Positions 1,578-25,449 of a stretch of 34,848 bases of DNA are shown piece by piece; the stretch's first letter is position 1, and each line of letters starts with the position of its first letter. The DNA is from Lachnospiraceae bacterium (GTDB lineage Bacteria; Bacillota; Clostridia; Lachnospirales; Lachnospiraceae). The position numbers and the translations under genes are program-made. The notes under the pieces are model-generated. The model had not been told where the DNA came from. It saw only the letters and a list, made by a program, of their open reading frames with translations, and did no database searches. The DNA is taken from contig JAIKVT010000121.1 in the NCBI GenBank assembly GCA_024685495.1, positions 1 to 34,848 on the forward strand, read 5' to 3'.

Positions 1578-1880
1578 TATTAGTATTCTTACATTCATAA
1601 TAATGAAAAAATATGTATTAAACGTTGGAAAGGTGTATAATATCAATAAAGGATGCAACAAGGAGTTGCTTTATAAATGAAAATGGCTATTAGACAATAT
1701 GGTATTTGTTGATAAAATTTGAAAAAGATTATAATGATTATGTCAATTAGAATTATATCAAGATATAGAGAGGATAATTGACTTTTGTATAAAGAACATC
1801 ATTCTAAACTTGATTTTTGATGTGCAGAGAAAACTTATATGGAAGCCATCTATATAGATACTTTACGAGGAGGACGGATA

Positions 1881-4427
1881 ATGGAGTTAAATGAAGCTAT
1901 ACAACATGCGATTGATGGAGATGCAGTATTGTTCTTAGGTGCAGGATTTTCTTGTGATGGAAAGAATAAAAATGGTGAATCACTTCCTTCTGCAGGTGAA
2001 TTATCTAAAAGGATGTGTAGAGAAATGGGAGTGTCTGAATCGACTGATTTAGCAACAGTAAGTGATATGTATATTGACCATCCTCAATATGGAAAAGGGG
2101 TAAATGAATTAATCAAGTTTTTGAAAAATCAATGCTTATGTTTAAGCGCATCAAATGTGCACAATGTAATAATAGACCTTCCGTGGAAAAGAATTTATAC
2201 GGCAAATTATGATAATATTCCGGAAATATGTTCGCGTAAAAGTGGTATTGAAAGAGAAACGATTACTGCCACATTACCACATAGAAATGTTTCGTATACA
2301 AAAGGAGCAATTGTTCATTTGAATGGATACATCCAGGATGTTACAGAAGAAAGATTCTTTGAAGAATTTAAAATTACAAATTCAAGTTATTTAAGGTCGG
2401 GTTTTTTAGAATCTGAGTGGGCAGGGCAATTTATAAGAGATATTAATACATGTAAGGCAATCATATTTGTTGGGTATTCTATGAAATATGATTTGGAGTT
2501 AAGAAAAGTAATGAGTGATGCTGTTCAGAATAAAGCTATATTTATTGATAGGCACGACATTTCGGAAGAGCAGAAATATATATTTGAAAAATGGGGAACT
2601 TTTTATCCTATTGAAGTCGAGGGCTTAGCCAAAGAAATTGAAGATGTTAGTAAAGTATATAGTGCACCTGAAAGGGTTGTTAAGCTAGATAGTTTAGAGG
2701 AAATACAAATTGATAAGTATCATATGGGTCAAGTGACACCAAATGATGTTGTAAATTTACTTGTTTATGGAAAATGTGACAAGTATGATTTCAGAAAAAG
2801 TGACTACTATTTGGAAAGAAATGAACTTTTAGAAAATGTAAAATCAACATTGCAAAACAAAAAAATATGTTTGCTACATGCAAATCTAGGTAATGGGAAA
2901 TCAATTGCACTGTTCTATTTAATGAGTCAATTGGTTGAAGATTATAGGGTATATGTTGTTGATAATTTAGAAAAAATCCAAGAGGATTTAGAACTCTTGA
3001 AACAGAGAAAGTCCAATAAACATTTAATTGTTGTTGACGACTATGACATGCAAATGTCTTTGTTTAGAGAGTTGGGATATGATTTTGAGGATAATATTAA
3101 AGTTTTGGCATCGTGCAGAACTTCAATGAGTGAAATACTTTTAGATAGTATGATGGATTTATGTGGTATTTCTGATGATTGTATAGGAGTAATCAATATT
3201 GAAATTATCACTGATGACGAAAGAAGAAAGCTAATAAATCTCCTTGACAATTATAATTTGTGGGGGACAAAGACTGCATATAGTAAGACAGAAAAAAATA
3301 AATTAATATTAAAAAAATATAAGAATCGGTTATCATCAATTTTTTATATGTTATTAGAATCAAATGTGATTTCGGATAAATTAAACAACGTTTTAGATGC
3401 AATAAAAAAAGATGAGGTTAAGAAATATTTATATGCACAGGCTGTATGCGACATTTGTAATTTTAAACTGCGTGGTTATGAAATTGCATATTTGTCAGAA
3501 AGTGATTATTCAGAAATTGAAAAGGCATCATCGCTAAAAGACATGAAAGAGGTTTTTGTTAGAACATCAGAGTGTATAGAATTACGTTCAGCTGTCTTCT
3601 CTCAATATTTGATTAAGGAAAACAGAGATTACGAAATGTTGTCGGGTATTTTGATACGTATGTACAAGCGTTCAGTGAATTTGAAAGGATATGAGAGTGA
3701 TAATGTTCGAAAAAAATTGATTTCAAGATCTAATCTGATTGAAGTGTTTGGAGGAAGGAAGAATAATTCTGATTGGAGGCAGAGAGATAAGGATATATAT
3801 GCTTTTTACTGTTCCATACAGAATGATGCGAAAACAAATCCTTTTTTCTGGTTACAATATGCCATTACGGCGTTGAATCTAGAATACTATGTTGATGCGA
3901 AAATATACTTTGAAAATGCATATAGTTATGCTTCTGAATTGGATGGATTTGATTCGTTTCAGCTTGATACACACTATGCAAGATTTTTGCTTGAAGAAAT
4001 ACTGAAGTATGATGAGAAATTTGACTTTGATAAATTTACAAAGGCACATAGACTCTTGATGGATAGTAGTAATGCTGAAATACGATTATCTTATGTGTTA
4101 CGTCAAGTTGGGATATATGGAAAAATAAATCAACAATTTCAAGACGATTTTGGCGCTAATAAAAGAATGGAGTTTATTGCTGATGTAAAAGAAGTTATTA
4201 GTAAATTTGAAGAGTATTTTTCAGCGGTAGAAAAAAAGAAAAAGCAAACGTTTTATTTTGCTGTGGAGAAATCGGTTAGAAAACCATTTAAACGATTTAG
4301 AGATTTATTGTTTGATGTAATCCCATTAGAAGATATTGTAGATTTGGATAAAAGATATAATCATCTTGTATCAAAAAACGATAGAGTTAGAGTTGGAAAA
4401 CGCGATTCTAAAATAAAAAAAGGATAA
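1881..4427 (+). CDS. SIR2-like N-terminal domain fused to P-loop (STAND-like) NTPase; candidate antiphage NADase effector
   Basis: GGAGG before ATG 1881 (downstream of the track start 1839). SIR2-like motifs: AVLFLGAGFSCDG, IYTANYDN, VHLNGYI, IIFVGYS. Walker A-like ANLGNGKS and Walker B-like HLIVVDDYD. Helical repeat-like C terminus. Confidence 0.85.
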   Translation: MELNEAIQHAIDGDAVLFLGAGFSCDGKNKNGESLPSAGELSKRMCREMGVSESTDLATVSDMYIDHPQYGKGVNELIKFLKNQCLCLSASNVHNVIIDLPWKRIYTANYDNIPEICSRKSGIERETITATLPHRNVSYTKGAIVHLNGYIQDVTEERFFEEFKITNSSYLRSGFLESEWAGQFIRDINTCKAIIFVGYSMKYDLELRKVMSDAVQNKAIFIDRHDISEEQKYIFEKWGTFYPIEVEGLAKEIEDVSKVYSAPERVVKLDSLEEIQIDKYHMGQVTPNDVVNLLVYGKCDKYDFRKSDYYLERNELLENVKSTLQNKKICLLHANLGNGKSIALFYLMSQLVEDYRVYVVDNLEKIQEDLELLKQRKSNKHLIVVDDYDMQMSLFRELGYDFEDNIKVLASCRTSMSEILLDSMMDLCGISDDCIGVINIEIITDDERRKLINLLDNYNLWGTKTAYSKTEKNKLILKKYKNRLSSIFYMLLESNVISDKLNNVLDAIKKDEVKKYLYAQAVCDICNFKLRGYEIAYLSESDYSEIEKASSLKDMKEVFVRTSECIELRSAVFSQYLIKENRDYEMLSGILIRMYKRSVNLKGYESDNVRKKLISRSNLIEVFGGRKNNSDWRQRDKDIYAFYCSIQNDAKTNPFFWLQYAITALNLEYYVDAKIYFENAYSYASELDGFDSFQLDTHYARFLLEEILKYDEKFDFDKFTKAHRLLMDSSNAEIRLSYVLRQVGIYGKINQQFQDDFGANKRMEFIADVKEVISKFEEYFSAVEKKKKQTFYFAVEKSVRKPFKRFRDLLFDVIPLEDIVDLDKRYNHLVSKNDRVRVGKRDSKIKKG

Positions 4428-4950: not shown

Positions 4951-5160
4951 ATGAATACGCAAGAAGAATTGATTGAATTAAAAGAAAAAAGTGGATTAAG
5001 TTTAAAAAAGCTCTCGGATTATTTCGGCATCCCTTACCGTACATTGCAGGATTGGTATTATGGGAATCGTAAGATGCCGGAGTATTTGTTACGCCTTATG
5101 ATTTATAAGATGGAGATGGAGAAATTGTTGAATGATAAAAAGGAGGATGCTCCGGAATGA
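4951..5160 (+). CDS. small helix-turn-helix DNA-binding protein
   Basis: MNTQEELIELKEKSGLSLKKLSDYFGIPYRTLQDWYYGNRKMPEYLL. ATG 4951 is preferred because the upstream part of the track ORF (from 4762) runs through the structured repeat. ATGA overlap with the next gene. Confidence 0.75.
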   Translation: MNTQEELIELKEKSGLSLKKLSDYFGIPYRTLQDWYYGNRKMPEYLLRLMIYKMEMEKLLNDKKEDAPE

Positions 5161-6737
5161 AGACAGAAAAAGAAATACGTGAATTACTCCTACGGGGAGA
5201 GAAAGCTGATCTGGAGTGTAAAACCGCAGAAAGAAAGACGCCTAAATCCATATACGAATCTTATTCAGCTTTTGCAAATACAAATGGTGGAATAATTCTT
5301 CTTGGTGTAAGCGAAGATAAATATGCAGAGATGCCTCAAAAAAAGTATGTTTTATCCGGTGTAGAGAATACTGATAAGATTATTACAGATTTTTGGAATA
5401 CTATAAACGGAAATAAAGTTAATGCTAACATTCTTAAGGATGAAGATGTTTATTCATTTGACATTGACGGCGTGCAGCTTGTCGTTATTGAGGTTCCACG
5501 AGCAGATTATGTGACACGACCGGTTTATATTGGTGATAATCCATTTAAGGGTTCTTTTAAGAGGAATCATGAGGGCGATTATCACTGTGCACAGGCTGAA
5601 GTTCGGGCAATGATTCGTGATGAGAATGAAGGCGGAAACGACGGCTTAATAATGGAGAATTATACAATGGACGATATAGATGATAATACACTCCATCAAT
5701 ATCGGAATCGATTTCGTGTTGTAAATGAGGATAATGTCTGGAATAATTTGGAGGATAAAGAGTTCCTTGAAATGTTAGGAGGATATCGCTACGACCGCCA
5801 AAAGAAGGTGGAAGGACTTACTTTAGCCGGATTACTGATGTTTGGAAAAGGATATCCTATTCGTGATAAGTTTGATATGATCAATATGGACTATCGAGAA
5901 GAAACGGATGTAAATTTTGATGTTCGTTGGAATGACCGAATAACATATGATGGAACATGGGAAAACAATCTGTATACTTTTATTCAGAAGGTAATGCCCA
6001 AATTGACATCAGAGCTTCCTAGACCTTTTAAGCTAGAAGGTGTACTTCGCGAAGATGATACACCTCAACATAAGGCATGTCGTGAGGCAATGATTAATAT
6101 GATTATACACGCAGATTTTCAAGGAGAAGGGACACTTAAGGTTATAAAGCGTTCAGATGCATTTGAATTTTCAAATCCGGGAACACTAAAACTTCCTAAA
6201 GAGCTTATCTATAAAGGTGGTAACTCTAAAGCAAGAAACCCAAAGATGCAGACGATGCTTCGAATGATAGGGTATGGAGATACTGCGGGATCTGGTTTTC
6301 CCACCATACTATCAGCTTGGAGCGAAAAGAATTGGCCTGAACCGGAACTTTTCGAGGATACTGTTCTAAATCAGGTAACACTAACATTGAAGCATGAGCT
6401 TGGCAAAGAATCTATCAGAGAAAACAATTCAACTACCAAAGAAACTGCTACAGCTACTAAAGAAAATGGTACAACTACCAAAGAAACTGCTAAAAAAACG
6501 GTTGGAACTACCAAAGAAACGAAAAAGACTACCAAAGAAAATACGAAAGAAGTGGCCGAGAGAATTATGGAAATTCTAAGGGAAAATCCGAAAAAGTCAG
6601 CGAAGGAAATTGCTGACTATGTAGGGATGACACCAGATGGAGTTCGTTATCATTTAAATAAACTAAAGAAGGAAGGGTTACTACATCACAAAGGGCCAAC
6701 AAAAGGCGGTTATTGGTTAATTGACAAAGACAGATAG
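5157..6737 (+). CDS. AlbA_2 (Schlafen-like) ATP-binding regulator with C-terminal winged helix
   Basis: LLLRGEKADLECKTAERKTPKSIYESYSAFANTNGGIILLGVSED (AlbA_2); REAMINMIIHADFQGEGTLKVIKR..FEFSNPG (ATPase-like region); C-terminal wHTH after a TTKE-rich linker. Confidence 0.85.
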   Translation: MKTEKEIRELLLRGEKADLECKTAERKTPKSIYESYSAFANTNGGIILLGVSEDKYAEMPQKKYVLSGVENTDKIITDFWNTINGNKVNANILKDEDVYSFDIDGVQLVVIEVPRADYVTRPVYIGDNPFKGSFKRNHEGDYHCAQAEVRAMIRDENEGGNDGLIMENYTMDDIDDNTLHQYRNRFRVVNEDNVWNNLEDKEFLEMLGGYRYDRQKKVEGLTLAGLLMFGKGYPIRDKFDMINMDYREETDVNFDVRWNDRITYDGTWENNLYTFIQKVMPKLTSELPRPFKLEGVLREDDTPQHKACREAMINMIIHADFQGEGTLKVIKRSDAFEFSNPGTLKLPKELIYKGGNSKARNPKMQTMLRMIGYGDTAGSGFPTILSAWSEKNWPEPELFEDTVLNQVTLTLKHELGKESIRENNSTTKETATATKENGTTTKETAKKTVGTTKETKKTTKENTKEVAERIMEILRENPKKSAKEIADYVGMTPDGVRYHLNKLKKEGLLHHKGPTKGGYWLIDKDR

Positions 6738-11526: not shown

Positions 11527-12684
11527 ATGCCGACAGTAAAAGTAAGTATTCAACCAGAAATTATTAGTTGGGCAATGAGCCAAACAGACGAAAGTCAACT
11601 TGGAACAGCATTATTAAGTAATATTCGGAAATGGCTTGATGGCACAAAGACGCCTACCTTCAATCAGATAGAAGAATTTAGCCGTAAATCACATATACCG
11701 CTTGGTTATTTCTTTTTGCAAAAGCCACCGGTTGAGAATATTGAGCTGTTAGAATATAGAACTATTGATAGTGTGGAACTTGCTAACCCAAGTAGAGACA
11801 TGATTGATACCATCAATGACATGAAAAGGGTACAAGATTGGATGAAAGAGTATCGCCAAGAGACAGGCTTTGATACGCTTAGAATTGTGGGTAGTTTGAG
11901 TGGGCAAAAAGAACATGAGTATATCGCAGAATGTATAAGGCAAGACATGGATTTGGATCGCGAATGGTTTAGGCAGCAAAAAGATGCAAATGATTCTTTT
12001 AAATATATTAGAGGGCAGTTAGAAGAAAGTGGTGTATTAGTAATGCTTAATGGTATTGTTGGGAAAAACACTCATAGGGCTTTGAATATTAATGAGTTTA
12101 GAGCCTTTGCGATGGTGGACGAGTGGGCACCGTTGATATTTATAAATAGTGTTGATTCTCAAGGGGCAAAAGTATTTTCTTTATTTCATGAAATTGCGCA
12201 TATATGGCTGGGAGAGGACGATCTATATAATGATAGAGGAAACAGTGAAAATGTTAACCAAATAGAGGTAATATGTAATGCTGTAGCAAGTGAATTGATG
12301 GTTCCATTTGATGTGTTTTTAAATGAATGGAATAGTATTAATGAAGGAGACGAACAAGAAACAATAACTTGTTTGTCAAGGGTTTTTAATTGTAGTAAAA
12401 CAGTAATTGCAAGAAAAGCGTTGGACATAAAAAAAATTAGTAAAAAAATGTATGATGATATAGTAGAAGACGCTATTATAGAGTATAAGACTATGAAAGA
12501 GAATAAAACATCAGGTGGCAATTACTATAATAATGCAAAAAATCGGCTTGATGGATGCTTTGTGAAAGCTCTTTGTAATAGTGTTGCATCTGGTAGAACA
12601 ACCTTTACAGAAGTATTTAGGTTAACGAATACTAGTAGAAAGACTTTTTTGGAAGTTGCTTCGAGTCTAGGAGGTGAGATTTGA
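11527..12684 (+). CDS. ImmA/IrrE family metallopeptidase-like protein with N-terminal HTH-like region
   Basis: FSLFHEIAHIWLGEDD (HExxH); SNIRKWLDGTKTPTFNQIEEFSRKSHIPLGYFFLQKPP; AGGAGG upstream. Confidence 0.85.
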   Translation: MPTVKVSIQPEIISWAMSQTDESQLGTALLSNIRKWLDGTKTPTFNQIEEFSRKSHIPLGYFFLQKPPVENIELLEYRTIDSVELANPSRDMIDTINDMKRVQDWMKEYRQETGFDTLRIVGSLSGQKEHEYIAECIRQDMDLDREWFRQQKDANDSFKYIRGQLEESGVLVMLNGIVGKNTHRALNINEFRAFAMVDEWAPLIFINSVDSQGAKVFSLFHEIAHIWLGEDDLYNDRGNSENVNQIEVICNAVASELMVPFDVFLNEWNSINEGDEQETITCLSRVFNCSKTVIARKALDIKKISKKMYDDIVEDAIIEYKTMKENKTSGGNYYNNAKNRLDGCFVKALCNSVASGRTTFTEVFRLTNTSRKTFLEVASSLGGEI

Positions 12685-13202
12685 TGGGAAAACAGGAGAC
12701 ATTTCTTGTTGATTCAAATACATTTATTACACCATTTAGATTGTATTATTCGTTTGATTTAGTCCCCTCATATTGGAAAGAATTAAAAAAATATCTTGAC
12801 TCTGGAAGCATTGTAGTTCTTGATTTAGTAAAAAAAGAGATTGAGGGAGGAAAAGATGAACTGTCTGAATGGCTTTCTGGGGTGGATGATCTTATTGTTG
12901 TACCTAAAGTAACTGAACAAACAGTAAAATCGTATCAAGAAGTAATGCGGTTTGTGTCAAGTTCAGGATACTATAAGGAATCAGCGTTATCGAGTTGGGC
13001 ACCATCGAATGTTGCAGATCCATGGCTTATTGCATCAGCTAAAACAAATGGTTATACACTTGTGACTGAAGAAAAAAAGTCGGGTGGATTAAGCAAGAAG
13101 AATCCCAACAAGTATGCAAAGATTCCGGATGTAGCGGAACAATTGGGGGTCAAGACAATAAGAATTTATGACATGATGAGGAGATTAGGAATCATTATTT
13201 AA
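12684..13202 (+). CDS. DUF4411 PIN-like protein, partner of the ImmA/IrrE gene
   Basis: FLVDSNTFITPFRLYYSFDLVPSYWKEL..VADPWLIASAKTNGYTLVTEE; ATG overlaps the upstream TGA; AGGAGGTGA RBS. Confidence 0.8.
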   Translation: MGKQETFLVDSNTFITPFRLYYSFDLVPSYWKELKKYLDSGSIVVLDLVKKEIEGGKDELSEWLSGVDDLIVVPKVTEQTVKSYQEVMRFVSSSGYYKESALSSWAPSNVADPWLIASAKTNGYTLVTEEKKSGGLSKKNPNKYAKIPDVAEQLGVKTIRIYDMMRRLGIII

Positions 13203-14203: not shown

Positions 14204-15115
14204 ATGAATGATGCAGAAATAAAAGCAAAGGCAGATGAGATTGCTCGACTGTGTTTAGTTAAGTGGGAAATAAAGGATGATGATGTAAGGATTCTGAAAT
14301 TTAAGGAGGAATTACCGCATTTCATACGAGAATTTGATGATTCATCGATGCCTATGATAGAGAATCTACTTCATCGTTTTGATTATTTTTCGCATGAGAA
14401 TGTCAATAAGAGACTTGTTGAATTATATACCAAGATAAGTGCGAAATATGATTTAGATCCAATACTTACTGCATATAGTACGGTTAAATCAGCAACTGGG
14501 AGAATTAACAGTAGTAACGATTATGTCTCAGAATTTGGTTTTTTAAACCATATCAGTAAAAACTACATCTTTACAGATGTTGATACAGAAGCAGGACGTG
14601 ATGAATGGATTTATTTTGACACTGTCGTACTTATAGATGATATCTGTGGATCGGGAGATACTTTAAAGAGTTTTCTAAAAGATAGATATGATATTTTTAA
14701 AGATAAAAGAGTGATTTACGTTGTGATTTGCGCAATGAGTAAAGCAATAACTAAGATTGAAGAATTTGCGTCAATTAAAGGGTTTAATGTCGTTGTAGAA
14801 TGTTCTGTAAAATTTGATAAGGCGATTGAGGATTCAGAATTGAAATGCAGGAAGAATGAATTTATAAGATTATCTGAGGATCTTGATATATATGGTCACG
14901 ACATATTAGGGCATAGACATGCTGAGTCATTGGTTGCATATTATAATAATACGCCTAATAATACTTTAGGTGTTTTTAGAAAAGTTACAAGTAAAAATCA
15001 TGCTATTTTCCCAAGAGATGACGATGCAAAGATAAACATAGAAGAAATGAAAAAGGCTAGCGAAAAGAGAAAAAGAAATAATTATAATAATAGGATGGTA
15101 AGCTATAGTGAATGA
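14204..15115 (+). CDS. phosphoribosyltransferase-like protein, retron-associated candidate effector
   Basis: VVLIDDICGSGDTLKSFL (PRPP-loop-like), HRHAESLVAYYNNTPNNTLGVF; overlaps the wHTH ORF by 8 nt. Confidence 0.75.
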   Translation: MNDAEIKAKADEIARLCLVKWEIKDDDVRILKFKEELPHFIREFDDSSMPMIENLLHRFDYFSHENVNKRLVELYTKISAKYDLDPILTAYSTVKSATGRINSSNDYVSEFGFLNHISKNYIFTDVDTEAGRDEWIYFDTVVLIDDICGSGDTLKSFLKDRYDIFKDKRVIYVVICAMSKAITKIEEFASIKGFNVVVECSVKFDKAIEDSELKCRKNEFIRLSEDLDIYGHDILGHRHAESLVAYYNNTPNNTLGVFRKVTSKNHAIFPRDDDAKINIEEMKKASEKRKRNNYNNRMVSYSE

Positions 15116-15443
15116 ATATGTTGAACTGTTAATTTTAGCTTATTTTAGGGAATATAGGACAAGTTACTCTGTGTCAGATTTGGCGTATAAATTAGGCTTG
15201 ACAATAGAGTTGTTGAATTCATACATTGAAGAGTTATTGGAGAAAAAAGAATTATGTATAAAAGAGAATATGATTTCAATTTCTAAAGGAGGGCGTCTTG
15301 CATTAGAAAATTCTGATATGGAAAACTATTCTTTTGATAGTGAATCATATTTAATTGATGGTGTTAAAGAGAAATGGCCTATAGAAAAGGTCTATCCGGT
15401 TCATAGTTTTTCTAAAAATAAGTGGAGAGGAGGGGAGGAATAG
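15108..15443 (+). CDS. winged-helix DNA-binding-like protein, retron-associated
   Basis: YSVSDLAYKLGLTIELLNSYIEELLEKKELCIKENMISISKGGRLALE. Confidence 0.7.
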   Translation: MNEYVELLILAYFREYRTSYSVSDLAYKLGLTIELLNSYIEELLEKKELCIKENMISISKGGRLALENSDMENYSFDSESYLIDGVKEKWPIEKVYPVHSFSKNKWRGGEE

Positions 15444-15684
15444 CCATTATTTTAAAGCACATTTGTTAGAAGGCGAAAGGACAGTGGACTTTCATAGTTT
15501 TAAGGTTTCTTAATTTGCAGTAAGAGAAAGGCAAGCTTTCTCTTACTGTGAATGTTGGCATAACAACATTTACAGTCTATATTTTCCTCTTCGCGCGGAG
15601 ATATCCGCGCTCAGACTCAAATATAGACTGCATATCACAAATACAGATTTTAGTAGCAAATGTGCTTTAGAATGATGGTTGTTT
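15438..15684 (+). ncRNA. retron msr-msd ncRNA
   Basis: 31-nt a1/a2 pairing 15438-15468 with 15654-15684 (with G-U wobbles). Hairpins: 15518-15548 (13-bp perfect, GCAAG loop); 15551-15570 (7 bp); 15573-15630 (12-bp outer stem with 7-bp GC-rich inner stem, GATA loop). Immediately 5' of the RT. Confidence 0.88.
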
Positions 15685-16704
15685 AGATATATGGGATATA
15701 TAGAGGAACTTCAGATAGTATTAATTGAACAAAATGAACCGGAGGAAGATATTGATGCTGCGTGTAAATATGCAGAGAACCTTATTTCATTGGATATGCC
15801 AGTGATATTTAATAGAGAACATTTTTCATTGTTGGTTGGTCGAGAGAAGGAGGATATTTACAAGATAATATCGTCTCTTGAAAGTCATTATTACCAGCAG
15901 ATAACCATAAAGAAAAAAAGCGGTGGAGATCGTATCCTTTCTGTGCCGGCTTTAACATTAAAAGAAATTCAGAAGTGGATTTTAGATAATGTCCTTAGTA
16001 AGATGTATGTTTCTCCATATGCAATGGGTTTTCAAAAAGAAAGGTCTATAGTAACGAATGCCAAAGCACACGTTGGGAAAAAGTGCGTTGTAAATTTAGA
16101 TTTAAAAGAATTCTTTCCAAGTGTAAAGCTTGAAAAGGTCTTTAGAGCTTTTTATTATTATGGATACACCATAAGTGTTTCATATCTTATGGCTAGACTA
16201 TGTACATATAATAATGAATTACCGCAAGGAGCGCCAACAAGTCCTTATCTATCAAATGTTGTTTGCTTAAAAATGGATAAAAGGATTTCGGAACTTGCAA
16301 AAAAGTATGATGCATCCTATACAAGGTATGCTGATGATATTACGTTATCTGCAAATACTGATATATCAAATATTATACCGATTGTCGAGAAAATAGTAAC
16401 CGATGAAGGGTTTTCCTTAAATGAAAAAAAGACGCGAGTGTTATATGAATATCAAAGGCAAGAAGTTACAGGACTCTTGGTTAGTGGAAATAAGGTTAGG
16501 GTTGATAAGAAATATATTAAGAAGCTAAAACAAGAAATATATTACTGCAAGAAATATGGAGTAACTGATCATTTAAGGCATATTAGGTGTGATAAGCGTT
16601 TTTATAAGGAACATATGTATGGGAAGGCATATTTTGTTAAGATGGTAGATGCTCATCTTGGACAGTGGATTATTAAGGAATTAGATTCAATAGCATGGGA
16701 GTGA
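15679..16704 (+). CDS. retron reverse transcriptase
   Basis: NAKAH (retron NAxxH), NLDLKEFFPSV, LPQGAPTSPYLSN, YTRYADDITLS, EVTGLLVSGNKVRV. TTG 15679 or ATG 15691 start unresolved. Confidence 0.93.
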   Translation: MFRYMGYIEELQIVLIEQNEPEEDIDAACKYAENLISLDMPVIFNREHFSLLVGREKEDIYKIISSLESHYYQQITIKKKSGGDRILSVPALTLKEIQKWILDNVLSKMYVSPYAMGFQKERSIVTNAKAHVGKKCVVNLDLKEFFPSVKLEKVFRAFYYYGYTISVSYLMARLCTYNNELPQGAPTSPYLSNVVCLKMDKRISELAKKYDASYTRYADDITLSANTDISNIIPIVEKIVTDEGFSLNEKKTRVLYEYQRQEVTGLLVSGNKVRVDKKYIKKLKQEIYYCKKYGVTDHLRHIRCDKRFYKEHMYGKAYFVKMVDAHLGQWIIKELDSIAWE

Positions 16705-17986: not shown

Positions 17987-20719
17987 ATGCTACGAATAGA
18001 TAGGGATATATTGAATATAGATCAAGTCATTTGTTCAAATATTGATTTGATAGATTTTGAGACTGTTACTAGATCTTTGGTGGCTCAGAATTTGCTCAGC
18101 TACTCACGTAATCTTGTTGAGCACATTGCTGTAAAACTGTATGGAGAGGGAAGAGATATCGTTGTAGGTTTGCAAACAATCAAGCCTGCAATGGAATATA
18201 TTAAACGGGATAATAGATATCAGTTTTTACGGAGTTTTCATGGGTTTCTTCAAGAATCAGAGTCTCATTATACTCCTGAAAATGAAGGTGCTGAGCGCCT
18301 TGCGCTAAAATACTATCAATATTATTTACTCATAAAGGATTTTATGAAGAAGCAGTTTCAAATGGATATTCTTCATAATCTTGATAAGTTCCCACTGGAC
18401 ACGGATAAAAGCATTCAGGAATATCATGAAAAAATAGCAGATAGACTAAATGTTTTAAGGCCTATAAATGATTTAAACCGAGCACAGAGACTGTATGTTC
18501 ATAAGGTCGTGCCTTTTATTGCGCTGGAAAAGGTTTATTTCGAGGTAACGCTCACACCGGCATATGATACAACAAGTAAATTTGATCGGTTCGTGTGCTA
18601 TTCGTCATTTTGGGTGCCGCCGCATTATTCTTTAAAGGCGGATATATACCACGATGATATCATTCTTGATGATAAAAAGATGCCAATTAATATCCTTTCT
18701 GGTTATATGGTTTCTATAAGGCCGTGTGAACTAAATAATTATGCCAGTATCTTTGGCATTGACATAGATATCAAGGCTAACCATGCGGAATATCGTGGAA
18801 TGATGACATATCTGTCAAAATCCGGAGCCAGTTTGCTGGAAATAGTTCTTTCGTCGGATGGGGAATATAGGCGGATTAAACGGGAAATGTTTTCAAGGAG
18901 TCAGGTGCATCATTTTGAAAACATTTTGGATAAGAGTAGAGCGTTGATATTAAGCGGCAGAGCAGGATCAACAACAATTAGATACTTGCTTCATACTATG
19001 AATAATAAAGTTATTAAGAATCAGCGTAGTGATGAGGGTAATGGGTATCTATCCGGACTAAGGCTAAACTATGGTTGTATTCCTTTCGACACGATGCCAT
19101 TTGCATCTTCTTTGATTCAGCATATTCCAGGGAATTCTGCTCTTTTTGGAAGTGTTGAGAAAGAAGGAAGGGATTGTGAATTCTTTGCCAGCTATATTCA
19201 GTCGAACATGAATATTAATTCCTGTTTGTATACGAAGGAAACAGATATTGTTGAAAGATTTCCTGATGTAGATAAACTGATAGCGGCATTTAATGATAAG
19301 CTATATAAACCAAAGCATTGGAGGAGACGAATAGAAAAATTTGGCAAAAACCTCTATGTTGTAGAAGCGTTTGATAATACAAAGAAGGTAATCGAAAAGC
19401 TTCAAGAATGTTCTCAAAGCGGTATGCAGGGGTATGACGCAGCAATATCTTCGTGGATCGATTCACAAACTGACATTGATAGCGAAGAAAAGAAATATAT
19501 CCTTCTTGATATGTTTACAAAATCTTGTGTGGCTTTAATATATGGCGCGGCAGGAACGGGGAAAACATATCTAATTAACCATATTTCTCAGTTTTTCGGC
19601 GACTATGAAAAGTTGTATTTGGCAAATACAAATCCAGCGGTTGAAAATCTTAAAAGGAAAGTGAATGCGCAGAACTGCAGGTTCTCAACAATAAAGAAGT
19701 ATCTTATGTCACAGTGTGTCCAAACGGAATACGATATGTTGATCATGGATGAGTGCAGTATGGTTAGCAATGCTGATATGAATGCGATTTTGTCGAAGAC
19801 AAAATATAAAATGATGATCCTTGTGGGAGATACATATCAGATAGAGGCTATAAATTTTGGGAATTGGTTTTCCTTTGCAAGATACTTTATACCGAAAGCA
19901 GCATGGTGGGAGTTGGAAAATCCATATCGTACCAAGGATGAAGGACTTTTGGAATTGTGGAGAAAGGTGCGACTGTTAGAGACGGATCTTACGGAGCATA
20001 TAGTAAGTCATAGATATTCTTCAAAATTGGACTCTACTGTTTTTGATAGGCGAACAGAGGATGAAATTATTCTGTGCTTGAATTATGACGGATTGTACGG
20101 GATTAATAATATTAACAGATTTCTGCAGAATAATAATCCCAATAAAGCGTTCTACTGGGATTTGTGGACCTTCAAAGTGGGAGATCCTATTCTTTTTAAC
20201 GAATCTGAAAGATTCACACCGGTTCTATATAACAATTTGAAGGGTACCATTGTAGATATAGAAGCAGATAATGTGGCAGAAGAAATTTGGTTTTCGATAG
20301 AGGTTGATAAGCCATTGATGGCTATTGATGCTGACAATGTCGGATTGGAATTGCTGGAACCCTTAAATTCTGGCAAGTCAGTAATTCGCTTTAAGGTGAA
20401 AAAGAAAAAAGAATCTGACGATGACAGGGACTTTGCAGATGATACAGATATCCCATTTCAGGTTGCCTATGCCGTATCCATACATAAAGCCCAAGGTTTA
20501 GAATATGATTCTGTAAAGGTGATAATAACAAGAGATATTGATGAAATGATCACACATAATATTTTCTATACTGCAATAACACGGTCGAAGAAGTATTTGA
20601 AAATATTCTGGAGTCCAGAAACAATGCAGAGTGTCATAAGTAAATTTGAAACGATGAATGTAAGAAATGACGCGAATATTTTTTCTGCACAAAGCGGAAT
20701 CAAAATGCATAGGTTGTAA
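17987..20719 (+). CDS. SF1 (UvrD/RecD-like) helicase with large unrecognised N-terminal region
   Basis: ALIYGAAGTGKTYLI (Walker A), DMLIMDECSMVS (motif II), ILVGDTYQIEAI (motif III), NPYRT, YAVSIHKAQGLEYDSVKVII and FYTAITRSKKYLKIF (motifs V/VI). Confidence 0.88.
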   Translation: MLRIDRDILNIDQVICSNIDLIDFETVTRSLVAQNLLSYSRNLVEHIAVKLYGEGRDIVVGLQTIKPAMEYIKRDNRYQFLRSFHGFLQESESHYTPENEGAERLALKYYQYYLLIKDFMKKQFQMDILHNLDKFPLDTDKSIQEYHEKIADRLNVLRPINDLNRAQRLYVHKVVPFIALEKVYFEVTLTPAYDTTSKFDRFVCYSSFWVPPHYSLKADIYHDDIILDDKKMPINILSGYMVSIRPCELNNYASIFGIDIDIKANHAEYRGMMTYLSKSGASLLEIVLSSDGEYRRIKREMFSRSQVHHFENILDKSRALILSGRAGSTTIRYLLHTMNNKVIKNQRSDEGNGYLSGLRLNYGCIPFDTMPFASSLIQHIPGNSALFGSVEKEGRDCEFFASYIQSNMNINSCLYTKETDIVERFPDVDKLIAAFNDKLYKPKHWRRRIEKFGKNLYVVEAFDNTKKVIEKLQECSQSGMQGYDAAISSWIDSQTDIDSEEKKYILLDMFTKSCVALIYGAAGTGKTYLINHISQFFGDYEKLYLANTNPAVENLKRKVNAQNCRFSTIKKYLMSQCVQTEYDMLIMDECSMVSNADMNAILSKTKYKMMILVGDTYQIEAINFGNWFSFARYFIPKAAWWELENPYRTKDEGLLELWRKVRLLETDLTEHIVSHRYSSKLDSTVFDRRTEDEIILCLNYDGLYGINNINRFLQNNNPNKAFYWDLWTFKVGDPILFNESERFTPVLYNNLKGTIVDIEADNVAEEIWFSIEVDKPLMAIDADNVGLELLEPLNSGKSVIRFKVKKKKESDDDRDFADDTDIPFQVAYAVSIHKAQGLEYDSVKVIITRDIDEMITHNIFYTAITRSKKYLKIFWSPETMQSVISKFETMNVRNDANIFSAQSGIKMHRL

Positions 20720-21325: not shown

Positions 21326-23041
21326 CTATCTCTCGATATCTAATATACGCTTTCTTTGATGCTCAAGGCTAGGCTCTTGTAGCATATTATCAACATTACG
21401 TTTAATTGTATAGAGTCGTTTTTCTTCATTTTTGGCAGATTTATAGCGCGCACGGATAGGTTGTTGCTTTTTGATGAGCTTATCCCTTGTGGATTTTAGC
21501 GTGTTTAATGTAGGAGTCTTGCCTGGAGCAACTTTTATATAGGCTCGGGAGGGCAGAGTGCCTTCCTCAATATGCTCTTTTATGTATCGCTGGGCTGCTT
21601 CATAGAGCACGATTTCCGTCCTGTGTTCAAATCTAAATCTATCTTTGTTTCTTGCCTTCAAATAGGCATTATATACGTCCTTATTGACAAGATATTGACC
21701 GGTGTAGTGTATCTGCTCATTAAGTGCATCTATGCTATTTTCAGAATTCTTCAGAGCAGAACGAGCGTTGTATAGCTTATCGCGGGTATTCTGATATGCA
21801 TTATCTAAGGCTTCTCTGCTACTAATACCATGTTCTTCCATGTATATGATAGTGTCTGCCATATCTTTAAGGTTATTAATCTTAATACCACGGTCGATAG
21901 CACGGTTGGTAGTTGTGATGGCAGATATCTGTAAATCACGCACGAACGGAAGCCTTGTATCCATAGTAAATGCTGGAGGATACTTGATGTTTCGTCTTCT
22001 TACAGAATCGAGCTTCTCAAGGTTAGATGTTTTACGGTCAGGTGTGCTATGTTCAATAGGAACCCTATTCTTGGTGGCTTCATTAGTATTGTTCCTAAAA
22101 GTTTTGTTAACTCTATTATCAGCATTTGCCCTAGTCCTATTCTTATTCCTAGCATTTTCCTTAAAACGAACACGCAAAAAATCTTCCGTATAATCCGTTC
22201 CCAGAGCCCTTCCACGTATAGCCTTCTTATAATTAGGCAGGATATAACTGTATCTTCCACGACTAATTTTAAATGTGATATTATATTTGCTTTTAAGAAT
22301 ATGGGCAAACTCTTTTTCAGATCTGCTTTTGGCGAAAGCGTACTCTATAGCAGAGCGCAGGATATCCTTGTTAGTTCTGAAGCTTTCCCCTTTAGCTTCT
22401 TTTCCACGTTCTTTAGCCCAATATTCCTTCTCTGTAACTCTTTTCTTGGCAGGCTTCTTTAAGTCTACCTGATGTAACTTCTTCCGCTTGCATACGTCCA
22501 TTAGGTCGATTTTAAGGTATTCAAGGTATTTATCTGTAAGATGATGCTTATAACCGGCACGGCAGTCAATTTTTCTCTCCATAAAGTAACGTCTTTTAAC
22601 ATCTCGTTTTCTCAAACTATTAAAGATTATATGCACATGTATGTTTCCACTTCCATGTTCACCGTCATCATGAGTACAGACGATTGCCTGGTGCCCGGGA
22701 AAATTTCTTTCGGCGTATTCCATTCCGATTTGCTGTGCGTCCTTCATAGTGAGCTTGCCTTCAATAGCATCCTTCGGATCAAAGCTTATGATGTAATGGT
22801 GGGATTTTATATCGCCGTATTTCTGATTCTTGTGGTATCTATTATTAAGCATTCTACATTCGGCATCGAAAGTGGATACATTACAGTTAAGAGAATCAAT
22901 TATAAAATTTTCGCGCATAATAAGACGACCGTTCTCATCTTCAATAGAACGATTAGTAAGTCTGTCTTGTTCATACATAAGATATTCAACTGCTCTCCCA
23001 TAGTTTGCACTTTTTGATGATAAATGTTTTAAGATTGCCAT
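21326..23041 (-). CDS. relaxase/mobilization nuclease (MobP-like, VirD2-type)
   Basis: HHYIISFDPKD, GNIHVHIIFNSLR (HxHxIIF), Lys/Arg-rich C terminus. Confidence 0.88.
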   Translation of the reverse strand: MAILKHLSSKSANYGRAVEYLMYEQDRLTNRSIEDENGRLIMRENFIIDSLNCNVSTFDAECRMLNNRYHKNQKYGDIKSHHYIISFDPKDAIEGKLTMKDAQQIGMEYAERNFPGHQAIVCTHDDGEHGSGNIHVHIIFNSLRKRDVKRRYFMERKIDCRAGYKHHLTDKYLEYLKIDLMDVCKRKKLHQVDLKKPAKKRVTEKEYWAKERGKEAKGESFRTNKDILRSAIEYAFAKSRSEKEFAHILKSKYNITFKISRGRYSYILPNYKKAIRGRALGTDYTEDFLRVRFKENARNKNRTRANADNRVNKTFRNNTNEATKNRVPIEHSTPDRKTSNLEKLDSVRRRNIKYPPAFTMDTRLPFVRDLQISAITTTNRAIDRGIKINNLKDMADTIIYMEEHGISSREALDNAYQNTRDKLYNARSALKNSENSIDALNEQIHYTGQYLVNKDVYNAYLKARNKDRFRFEHRTEIVLYEAAQRYIKEHIEEGTLPSRAYIKVAPGKTPTLNTLKSTRDKLIKKQQPIRARYKSAKNEEKRLYTIKRNVDNMLQEPSLEHQRKRILDIER

Positions 23042-23042
23042 A

Positions 23043-23405
23043 TCACTTCTCCAATAATTCGTTAATCCTATTCGTTAATTCTCGTAAGTCATCCGCGCGA
23101 GAAATCAAATCGTTAGCTATCGGTTCTGTGAAATCATATCCACTATTTAGATGATGAGCGATTTGATTAAGATTGATTCCAATTTTATGAAATTCTTCTG
23201 TGAGTGCTGAGGCTTTTGCTAGTTCGGACTTATTGTTTTTTGAAATCACAACCTTTCCGTTTTTGATTTGCTCTCTTACAAAATCCGAAATCGATATTTT
23301 TGATTTTCTTGATTTAGATTTCAAATTATCTAATTCCTGATCGGTCAATCGAAAGGTAATTCTGTTTCCTCTTTCTTCAGATTTTTCTTTCCTTGGTCTA
23401 CTCAT
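23043..23405 (-). CDS. MobC-like relaxosome accessory protein
   Basis: ITFRLTDQELDNLKSKSRKSKISISDFVREQI (RHH-like) and HKIGINLNQIAHHLNSG. Confidence 0.85.
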   Translation of the reverse strand: MSRPRKEKSEERGNRITFRLTDQELDNLKSKSRKSKISISDFVREQIKNGKVVISKNNKSELAKASALTEEFHKIGINLNQIAHHLNSGYDFTEPIANDLISRADDLRELTNRINELLEK

Positions 23406-23434: not shown

Positions 23435-23610
23435 ATCGACGGAGTCGATTTGTGCGAAGCACCATTGCTGTTTTCTGCGAAGCAGAAAACCATTATCGGG
23501 TCTGGGGTGATAACCCCAGCAAGATTTGCCGAAGGCAGACAAAACGAGCGTAGCGAGTTTTTGTCTGACGCAGGCGAATCTTGCGTTAACTAAGTAGTGC
23601 CCTTTATATA
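23435..23610. other. putative origin of transfer (oriT): cluster of short hairpins
   Basis: Immediately upstream of mobC/relaxase; ATCGAC-GGA-GTCGAT, GTGC-GAA-GCAC, GTTTTCTGC-GAA-GCAGAAAAC, CTGGGGT-GATA-ACCCCAG, TGCC-GAA-GGCA, CAGACAAAA..TTTTGTCTG, then TAAGTAGTGCCCT. Confidence 0.65.
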
Positions 23611-23800
23611 TAGAAATTTCAGAGCACTTATTTTTACTTCTTTCAGATGTTATTTTGAATTAGTAAAAATTCATTGCTTTAAATTTCTATAAAATGAGGG
23701 GCAAAAAATCCCTTTACTAATAACAAATCTAGAACACTAAAAGTAAACATCTCTGAAAAATTATTTGAAAATGTTTACTTTGACCTTCGTAGATTTGTTA
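23609..23800. repeat. AT-rich region with nested inverted repeats upstream of xis
   Basis: TATAGAAATTT (23609) / AAATTTCTATA (23681); TAACAAATCT (23721) / AGATTTGTTA (23791); AAAGTAAACAT (23740) / ATGTTTACTTT (23771). Confidence 0.75.
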
Positions 23801-23821: not shown

Positions 23822-24040
23822 ATGGTCAATAAGGAAAACAATTTGGTTCTACCTTGGTGGAAGAAATATACGTTGACATTGAATGAGGCATCGGAATATT
23901 TCGGAATCGGATACAAGAAGCTTAAACTTTTTGTTCAAGAACATAAGGATGATGACTTTGTTTTGTGGAACGGTAACAGAGCGTTAATCAAACGAGCACA
24001 GTTTGAAAAGTACATGGATGAAAAGATGAATGTAATTTAG
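23822..24040 (+). CDS. excisionase, Tn916 Xis-like
   Basis: LPWWKKYTLTLNEASEYFGIGYKKLKLFVQEH...FVLWNGNRALIKRAQFEKYMDE; directly upstream of the integrase. Confidence 0.85.
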   Translation: MVNKENNLVLPWWKKYTLTLNEASEYFGIGYKKLKLFVQEHKDDDFVLWNGNRALIKRAQFEKYMDEKMNVI

Positions 24041-24171
24041 CCTGATGACAAGGTTCTTATAGAGAAAGAGCTGGTTCTGTGTTATGCTATTTGTACATAG
24101 TTATATAGGACTATGTATCTATAAAAGCATATAGAATACGGCTCTCCGAATAAGAAAGGAGACAACGTAGA

Positions 24172-25449
24172 ATGAGCGAGAAAAGACGAGATAATAAGAA
24201 TCGTATTTTACGCACAGGGGAGAGCCAGGATGCGGACGGACGCTATAGGTTTAGATATACTGACTCTAATGGTAAACGTAAATCGGTTTACAGTTGGAGA
24301 TTGGTGGCGACTGATAGTCTTCCGTACGGTAAAAGAGACAACTTGCCTCTGCGAGAACAAGAAAAAACTATTAACAGAGATCTTGAGGATGATATTCTTC
24401 CTGATGGTGGTGGACTTACAGTTCTTCAGCTGTCGAAGAAATATGTTGCAACAAAAACCGGAGTTAAGCATACGACGAGAGCCGGATATGGAACAGTACT
24501 CAGATTATTGGAAAGAGATCCATTTGGCGCTAAGAGAATCGATAGAGTAAGACTCTCTGATGCCAAAGAATGGTTGATTAAATTACAGCAGGTGGATAAG
24601 AAAAGCTATTCTTCTATTCATACTATTAGAGGAGTGCTTCGCCCAGCGTTTCAGATGGCTGTCGATGATGACATACTTCGGAAGAATCCATTTGATTTCC
24701 TGATAGCTACTGTTTTGGTAAATGATTCTGTAACAAGGGAAGCTATTTCGAGAAAGCAAGAAAGGACATTTCTTGAATTTGTTAAGAATGACTCACATTT
24801 CTGTAGATATTACGATGGCTTTTACATTCTTTTTAATACGGGGATGCGTATTTCGGAGTTCACAGGCTTAACCATATCAGATGTCGATATGGAGAACAGG
24901 ACGATTAACATTGACCATCAATTACAGAAGACAGGGACATTAGTATATATTAATACAACTAAAACCAATGCCGGGAAGAGAGTTATTCCGATGCAGGATG
25001 ATGTGTATGAGTGCTTTGAGAGAATCCTTGCAAGAAGACCAAAGTTAAAGGTGGAGCCGATGATTGATGGTTATTCCGGATTTCTTTGGTTTGACAAGGA
25101 TGGGAAGCCGATGGTTGCGCTGCATTGGGAGAAGTACTTTCAGCATGCGGTTGATAAGTATAATAGCATTTATCGTGTACAGCTTCCGAGAATTACACCG
25201 CATGTGTGCCGTCATACATATTGTTCGAATATGGCTAAGTCGGGAATGAATCCAAAGGTACTGCAATACCTTATGGGTCACTCTGATATAAGTGTTACGT
25301 TGAATACGTATACTCATCTGAAGTTCGATGATGCCAAGGACGAGATGGAGAAGATGGCTAAGAAACAGGCCGAGGCAAATGAAGAGTATAAGAAGTTGGG
25401 CATAAAAGATAATGAGCATTCGGTAATAAAATTTGGTGCGAATGGCTGA
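24172..25449 (+). CDS. tyrosine site-specific integrase, Tn916-type
   Basis: N-terminal GRYRFRYTDSNGKRKSVYSWRL arm-binding-like domain; LFNTGMRISEFTGLTISDVD; HVCRHTYCSNMAKSGMNPKVLQYLMGHSDISVTLNTYTH (HxxR..GH..Y). Confidence 0.95.
   Translation: MSEKRRDNKNRILRTGESQDADGRYRFRYTDSNGKRKSVYSWRLVATDSLPYGKRDNLPLREQEKTINRDLEDDILPDGGGLTVLQLSKKYVATKTGVKHTTRAGYGTVLRLLERDPFGAKRIDRVRLSDAKEWLIKLQQVDKKSYSSIHTIRGVLRPAFQMAVDDDILRKNPFDFLIATVLVNDSVTREAISRKQERTFLEFVKNDSHFCRYYDGFYILFNTGMRISEFTGLTISDVDMENRTINIDHQLQKTGTLVYINTTKTNAGKRVIPMQDDVYECFERILARRPKLKVEPMIDGYSGFLWFDKDGKPMVALHWEKYFQHAVDKYNSIYRVQLPRITPHVCRHTYCSNMAKSGMNPKVLQYLMGHSDISVTLNTYTHLKFDDAKDEMEKMAKKQAEANEEYKKLGIKDNEHSVIKFGANG

Follow-up and report, generated by a model that had tools for sequence, protein, structure and literature searches.

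The region at 23435-23584 of the window, which is the whole stretch of 34,848 nucleotides analysed here from the 2.2 Mb assembly of a Lachnospiraceae bacterium, is probably (at a probability of roughly 0.68) the oriT of a MOBP element of the Tn1549/pC221 type, integrative and mobilizable (or conjugative), in which the relaxase nicks the + strand at CTTG|C and a row of hairpins at the trailing 3' end represents a structure selected on the transferred strand. The identity of this oriT, its orientation and its nic are predicted by homology, with a table in a different publication supplying the nic of Tn1549. Its core is a further member of an already known oriT type, and the features of the region and its surroundings are as follows.

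21326-23041, minus strand: relaxase, MobA/VirD2-like (MOBP type), with an invariant Y20 and the histidine motif H124/D126/H135/H137 (Pfam PF03432, alignment)
23043-23405, minus strand: MobC/NikA-like ribbon-helix-helix relaxosome protein (Pfam PF21983, PF19514, PF05713)
23435-23449, + strand (transferred strand): hairpin 1, ATCGAC-GGA-GTCGAT, with a C(GGA)G loop
23452-23462, + strand: hairpin 2, GTGC-GAA-GCAC, with a C(GAA)G loop
23470-23490, + strand: hairpin 3, GTTTTCTGC-GAA-GCAGAAAAC, with a C(GAA)G loop
23498-23523, + strand: conserved core motif GGGTCTGGGG-TGATAA-CCCCAGCAAG, covering the second hairpin of the core and the left arm of the nic repeat
23502-23519, + strand: CTGGGGT-GATA-ACCCCAG hairpin
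23519-23584, + strand: long imperfect hairpin with the nic in its 3' arm; apex GC-GTA-GC with tandem G.A mismatches at 23544-23558
23527-23537, + strand: TGCC-GAA-GGCA hairpin, inside the long imperfect hairpin
23580-23584, + strand: predicted nic CTTG|C, cut at 23583|23584, the strand to the right being transferred first (homology to the Tn1549 nic RYGCTTG|C)
23591-23603, + strand: TAAGTAGTGCCCT, the nic candidate of an earlier note; not conserved and probably not the nic
23822-24040, + strand: Tn916-type excisionase, xis (Pfam PF09035)
24172-25449, + strand: Tn916-type tyrosine integrase, int (Pfam PF00589, PF02920)

The array is positioned between the xis/int pair (23822-25449, + strand) and the divergent mobC/relaxase pair (23405-21326, minus strand). 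No conjugation-pore gene was seen among the window ORFs scanned with Pfam, and the element is therefore probably an integrative mobilizable element (IME), whose left end may lie beyond the contig. When a set of genome contigs was scanned with the relaxase, two close relatives turned up, along with a single partial match that was weak. A different contig of the genome from which the window comes (G000:C226:1-369) carries a C-terminal relaxase fragment, 71% identical to the window relaxase, which is, judging from this similarity, a second related element or its remnant. Several other genes in the window resemble defence systems: a type III-A retron-like set at 14204-16704 (+), comprising a PRTase (PRTase_III-A), a small winged-helix protein (WH_III-A) and a reverse transcriptase (RT_III-A) according to PADLOC models, and at 17987-20719 (+) a 910-aa RecD2-like helicase with a full-length match to the PADLOC candidate defence model PDC-S53 (E 0). 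In addition, a SIR2/STAND-NTPase protein (1839-4427, +), a Schlafen AlbA_2 protein (5157-6737, +) and an IrrE-type peptidase adjoining a DUF4411 protein (11527-13202, +) are likely defence-gene cargo of the element. Directly before xis, a 30-nt inverted repeat (23721-23800; 80%, 20-nt gap) is a candidate regulatory or recombination site.

The core on the + strand of the window reads GGGTNTGGGG(loop)CCCCANCRAG, then a hairpin, then CTYG|C. This pattern was matched in 79/397 family genomes, 67/392 genomes of the order sample and 31/391 of the class sample (the three samples overlap), and the reversed pattern used as a control matched none of the family and class genomes listed and gave a single match in the order sample. 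The same core was found again upstream of mobC in relatives of the relaxase, and 97 cores align end to end, including those of the Tn1549-like pMG2200 and the pC221-like pPH1-3. The hairpin is a long inverted repeat, GCAAGATT...AATCTTGC at 23519-23584, which the earlier note had missed. The base after CTYG is C in 163/168 cores, whereas the base at the mirrored position in the left arm is variable; in addition, a left arm CGAG is paired with a nic arm CTCG in loci L032, L033 and L099, a compensating change to which L122 is an exception. The nic of Tn1549 is given in oriTDB, as quoted in a table of PMC7755788, as RYGCTTG|C, and in the oriT of pMG2200 this consensus is matched by ATGCTTG|C in the mobC-antisense strand, the equivalent in the window being 23583|23584 on the + strand. 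Taking the conserved core together with the nic consensus of Tn1549, we therefore place the nic at this position; it follows that the + strand would be the transferred strand, with the int side entering first and the mobC/relaxase side last.

Comparison with known systems revealed both shared and distinct features. The Tn1549 oriT (pMG2200 copy, L044) has a GGGTTTGGGG-loop-CCCCAACAAG hairpin, a long hairpin and CTTG|C in the same order on the strand antisense to mobC, as well as the same mobC-relaxase gene order, whereas its relaxase is just 26% identical to that of the window and no C(GNA)G array lies next to its core. In the pC221-type staphylococcal plasmid pPH1-3 (L045), GGGTTTGGGATATAATCCCAACAAG...GTATCTTG|CC aligns to the core, but mobC is on the other side of the oriT, the hairpin is short and the flank has one C(GTTA)G hairpin. 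Two features of a Tn1549/pC221-type MOBP oriT are found in the window: the core motif with a hairpin ending in CTYG|C, and the neighbouring genes for a MobC-like RHH protein and a MobA/VirD2-type relaxase. A similarity search of plasmids gave no direct match. Among viral contigs, six matches to the core pattern were found, of which five look unrelated (coding-like, without the nic arm) and only L259 is oriT-like. At two loci (L077 and L090; G123:C11 and G289:C2), two oriT cores were observed head to head on opposite strands, about 190 bp apart. The possibility of the minus strand being nicked 3' of the TGGGG hairpin, where ACCC is strongly conserved, was considered and dropped: the other strand is the only one that RYGCTTG|C fits, and the near-constant C lies after CTYG, the mirrored base of the left arm being the one that varies.

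The earlier note had proposed an oriT with an IncQ-like nic region at TAAGTAGTGCCCT. Its reading of the region next to mobC and a MOBP-type relaxase as an oriT is supported, but the nic region and the kinship to IncQ are not. The window relaxase matches PF03432 (MobA/VirD2-like) and aligns with relaxases typed as MOBP by PLSDB, an assignment made by alignment. In IncQ oriTs (R1162/RSF1010), the transferred strand has a hairpin with a GAA loop 5' of nic, and this likeness is shared by the window, but their relaxase class and nic motif are different, and the conserved TAAGTGCGCCCT-like nic region that follows the hairpin in IncQ-type oriTs has no conserved counterpart here. A nic inside TAAGTAGTGCCCT would draw on a loose resemblance in sequence and on a CCCT that a few relatives (L032, L033, L043 and L007) retain at a comparable position. 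However, TAAGTAGTGCCCT is missing from 29 loci of other genomes at up to 2 mismatches, save for one match within a relaxase gene, its distance to the repeat is variable, and the sequence that is conserved is CTYG|C instead, which makes the IncQ-like reading very improbable indeed.

All the hairpins listed in the earlier note proved, on a check of the sequence, to be present where it had placed them. The + strand triloops are GGA, GAA, GAA and GAA, each with a C-G closing pair, and the apex of the long hairpin, GC-GTA-GC (23548-23554), is a further loop of the GNA class, flanked by tandem G.A mismatches, which had been overlooked. C(GNA)G is a DNA-stable triloop class and C(GNNA)G a DNA-stable tetraloop class. 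Four + strand hairpins, with stems of 4-9, have the structure of phage N4 promoter hairpins, namely a loop with 5'G and 3'A, a closing C:G pair and an inverted-repeat stem. C(GNA)G hairpins with a stem of at least 4 have a density of 0.084 per kb per strand over 435 kb, made up of the window and 400 kb of control DNA (20 stretches), and groups of at least 3 such hairpins within 110 nt were found in these 435 kb solely in the present array, the two groups counted being overlapping starts of it. The clustering of C(GNA)G hairpins in the array exceeds chance.

The same loop classes are distributed asymmetrically in related oriTs. Among unique hairpins with loops of 3-8 and a stem of at least 4 in the 200 nt lying 5' of the 97 discovery cores, we found 28 C(GNA)G/C(GNNA)G hairpins on the transferred strand vs 3 of the opposite-strand class (p 5e-6), and for the same hypothesis 75 independent cores from the order and class searches gave 15 vs 1 (p 5e-4). 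Of the hairpins in 400 kb of control DNA, these loop classes account for 0.8% on one strand and 0.6% on the other, and 3' of nic no significant strand bias of loop class was observed. With one representative per sequence cluster (79 clusters) the count was 27 vs 3, where dinucleotide shuffles expect 1.3 with a maximum of 5 in 200, clustering correcting only in part for the shared descent of the cores. The stable-loop hairpins are concentrated within 100 nt of the core. DNA folding energy also favours the transferred strand, both for the nic hairpin (113/166) and for the 5' flank (110/164), with no strand preference 3' of nic (92/164, p 0.14). Strand-biased selection of the loops is supported statistically, and we infer that selection acts for structure on the transferred strand. 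As for the suggestion of the earlier note that folded ssDNA is recognized during transfer, the GNA loops on the transferred strand and the C(GNA)G/C(GNNA)G strand bias in related oriTs suggest that folding matters; that a protein recognizes the hairpins may be the case. The apex of the nic hairpin often takes the form GA-[G/A]C-loop-G[C/T]-GA, with tandem G.A mismatches under a G..A loop (GTA, GAA, GATTA or GATAA; window 23544-23558, L032, L043, L021 and L023), and this recurrence is another hint of structure on the transferred strand.

One or more such hairpins within 150 nt were found at only 53/178 cores, and the array is therefore not essential for this oriT type but an elaboration of it. 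At least two such hairpins were found at eight cores, and three at the window, L032 and L033 (G.T pairs allowed). In these three loci the order of the hairpins is kept and the middle one is identical, while the outer two have wholly different stems with the same loop classes; for example, hairpin 3 of the window is replaced in L032/L033 by GTAGTGC-GTA-GCGCTAC, in which a G.T pair is tolerated on the + strand that becomes A.C on the other. Hairpin 2 and the CATTG that follows it are identical in two genomes of the same genus (G303 and G304).

Functionally, the array might instead be a mere by-product of transfer, whose single-stranded intermediates would fold at stable loops and be corrected into functionless palindromes. 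The wholly different outer stems of near relatives with constant loop classes, and the lack of an array in most oriTs of this type, are what such a process would leave; however, the whole strand is single-stranded in transfer, and yet the hairpins are limited to one side of the core, over about 100-150 nt, with none 3' of nic, and hairpin 2 together with its flank is the same in three genomes, so that we regard this explanation as unlikely. Less likely again is that the hairpins work as RNA in the mobC leader and control translation or termination of the mobC-relaxase message. The array does lie 30-100 nt upstream of the mobC start, and one weak terminator-like site on the minus strand overlaps hairpin 1, but the C(GNA)G class is special for DNA on the + strand, opposite to the mRNA, and the T.G pair of the third hairpin in L032/L033, which pairs on the + strand, would become A.C in the mRNA. 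Moreover, in eight oriTs with mobC sense to the transferred strand the stable loops are still on the transferred strand (4:0), a weak test given the small set and the fact that no mobC was found for 100 of 172 cores.

A further alternative, possible though on the unlikely side, is that the array is a single-strand origin or a ssDNA promoter/primosome site, whose hairpins recruit RNA polymerase or a primosome in the recipient so that the complementary strand is copied leftward through mobC and the relaxase gene. Rolling-circle plasmids have single-strand origins upstream of the nick site, and the position and strand of the array, immediately 5' of nic where the transferred strand trails, fit this role, as does the strand bias of the loops; known single-strand origins are, however, longer than the array, and no Rfam match at gathering score was obtained (Rfam covers RNA only). 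C(GNA)G hairpins do serve as ssDNA promoters in phage N4 (PMC4496689).

Under the preferred reading, a selected structure at the trailing end of an oriT, the relaxase would nick the + strand at CTTG|C, probably aided by the MobC/NikA-like protein, and the + strand would enter the recipient with the int side first and the mobC/relaxase side last, so that the C(GNA)G row just 5' of the core would end up at the trailing 3' end. Held there in a defined fold under SSB, it would most likely serve first in relaxosome assembly, when transfer starts, and later in recognition and closure, when transfer ends, complementary-strand priming being the next most likely role. This biochemical role is one that we infer, and the sequence data do not separate closure from priming. 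The array lies about 95-150 nt from nic, beyond the usual reach of a relaxase, which counts against this reading. By analogy with phage N4 and pMV158, the array may also help to open the oriT in the donor. In phage N4, the 5'G and 3'A of the loop and the closing C:G pair are required for hairpin extrusion, which was observed at a superhelical density of -0.035 with Mg2+, and SSB melts the hairpin of the other strand while the GNA-strand hairpin is kept (PMC4496689). The N4 early promoters share with the array the C(GNA)G loop rule, the strand asymmetry and likely extrusion (PMC4496689), but they are promoters of a phage RNA polymerase and no oriT, and no such polymerase is implied for the window. 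In pMV158 (MOBV), the substrates of the relaxase MobM are hairpins that the transferred strand of the supercoiled oriT extrudes, and such hairpins act in nicking; that system differs in its relaxase family and its mutually exclusive repeats, with no GNA rule reported there (PMC5863519).

More generally, we tentatively propose that in MOBP Tn1549/pC221-type oriTs it is hairpins of the loop classes C(GNA)G/C(GNNA)G, and not sequence, that may mark the trailing end of the transferred strand, as a strand-specific, SSB-resistant and supercoil-extrudable signal for strand closure or second-strand start. In the collection of papers searched, some cite the GNA loops, but none ties GCGAAGC or GNA loops to an oriT and none has a transferred-strand loop-class rule, an absence that is no proof of the rule being undescribed.

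Oriented oriTs of this type are frequent among gut Firmicutes, with that of the vancomycin resistance element Tn1549 among them, and the core motif is sufficiently specific for such oriTs to be located and oriented, and their nic predicted, from sequence alone. If the loop rule is functional, the DNA-hairpin rule of phage N4 promoters would extend to conjugation.
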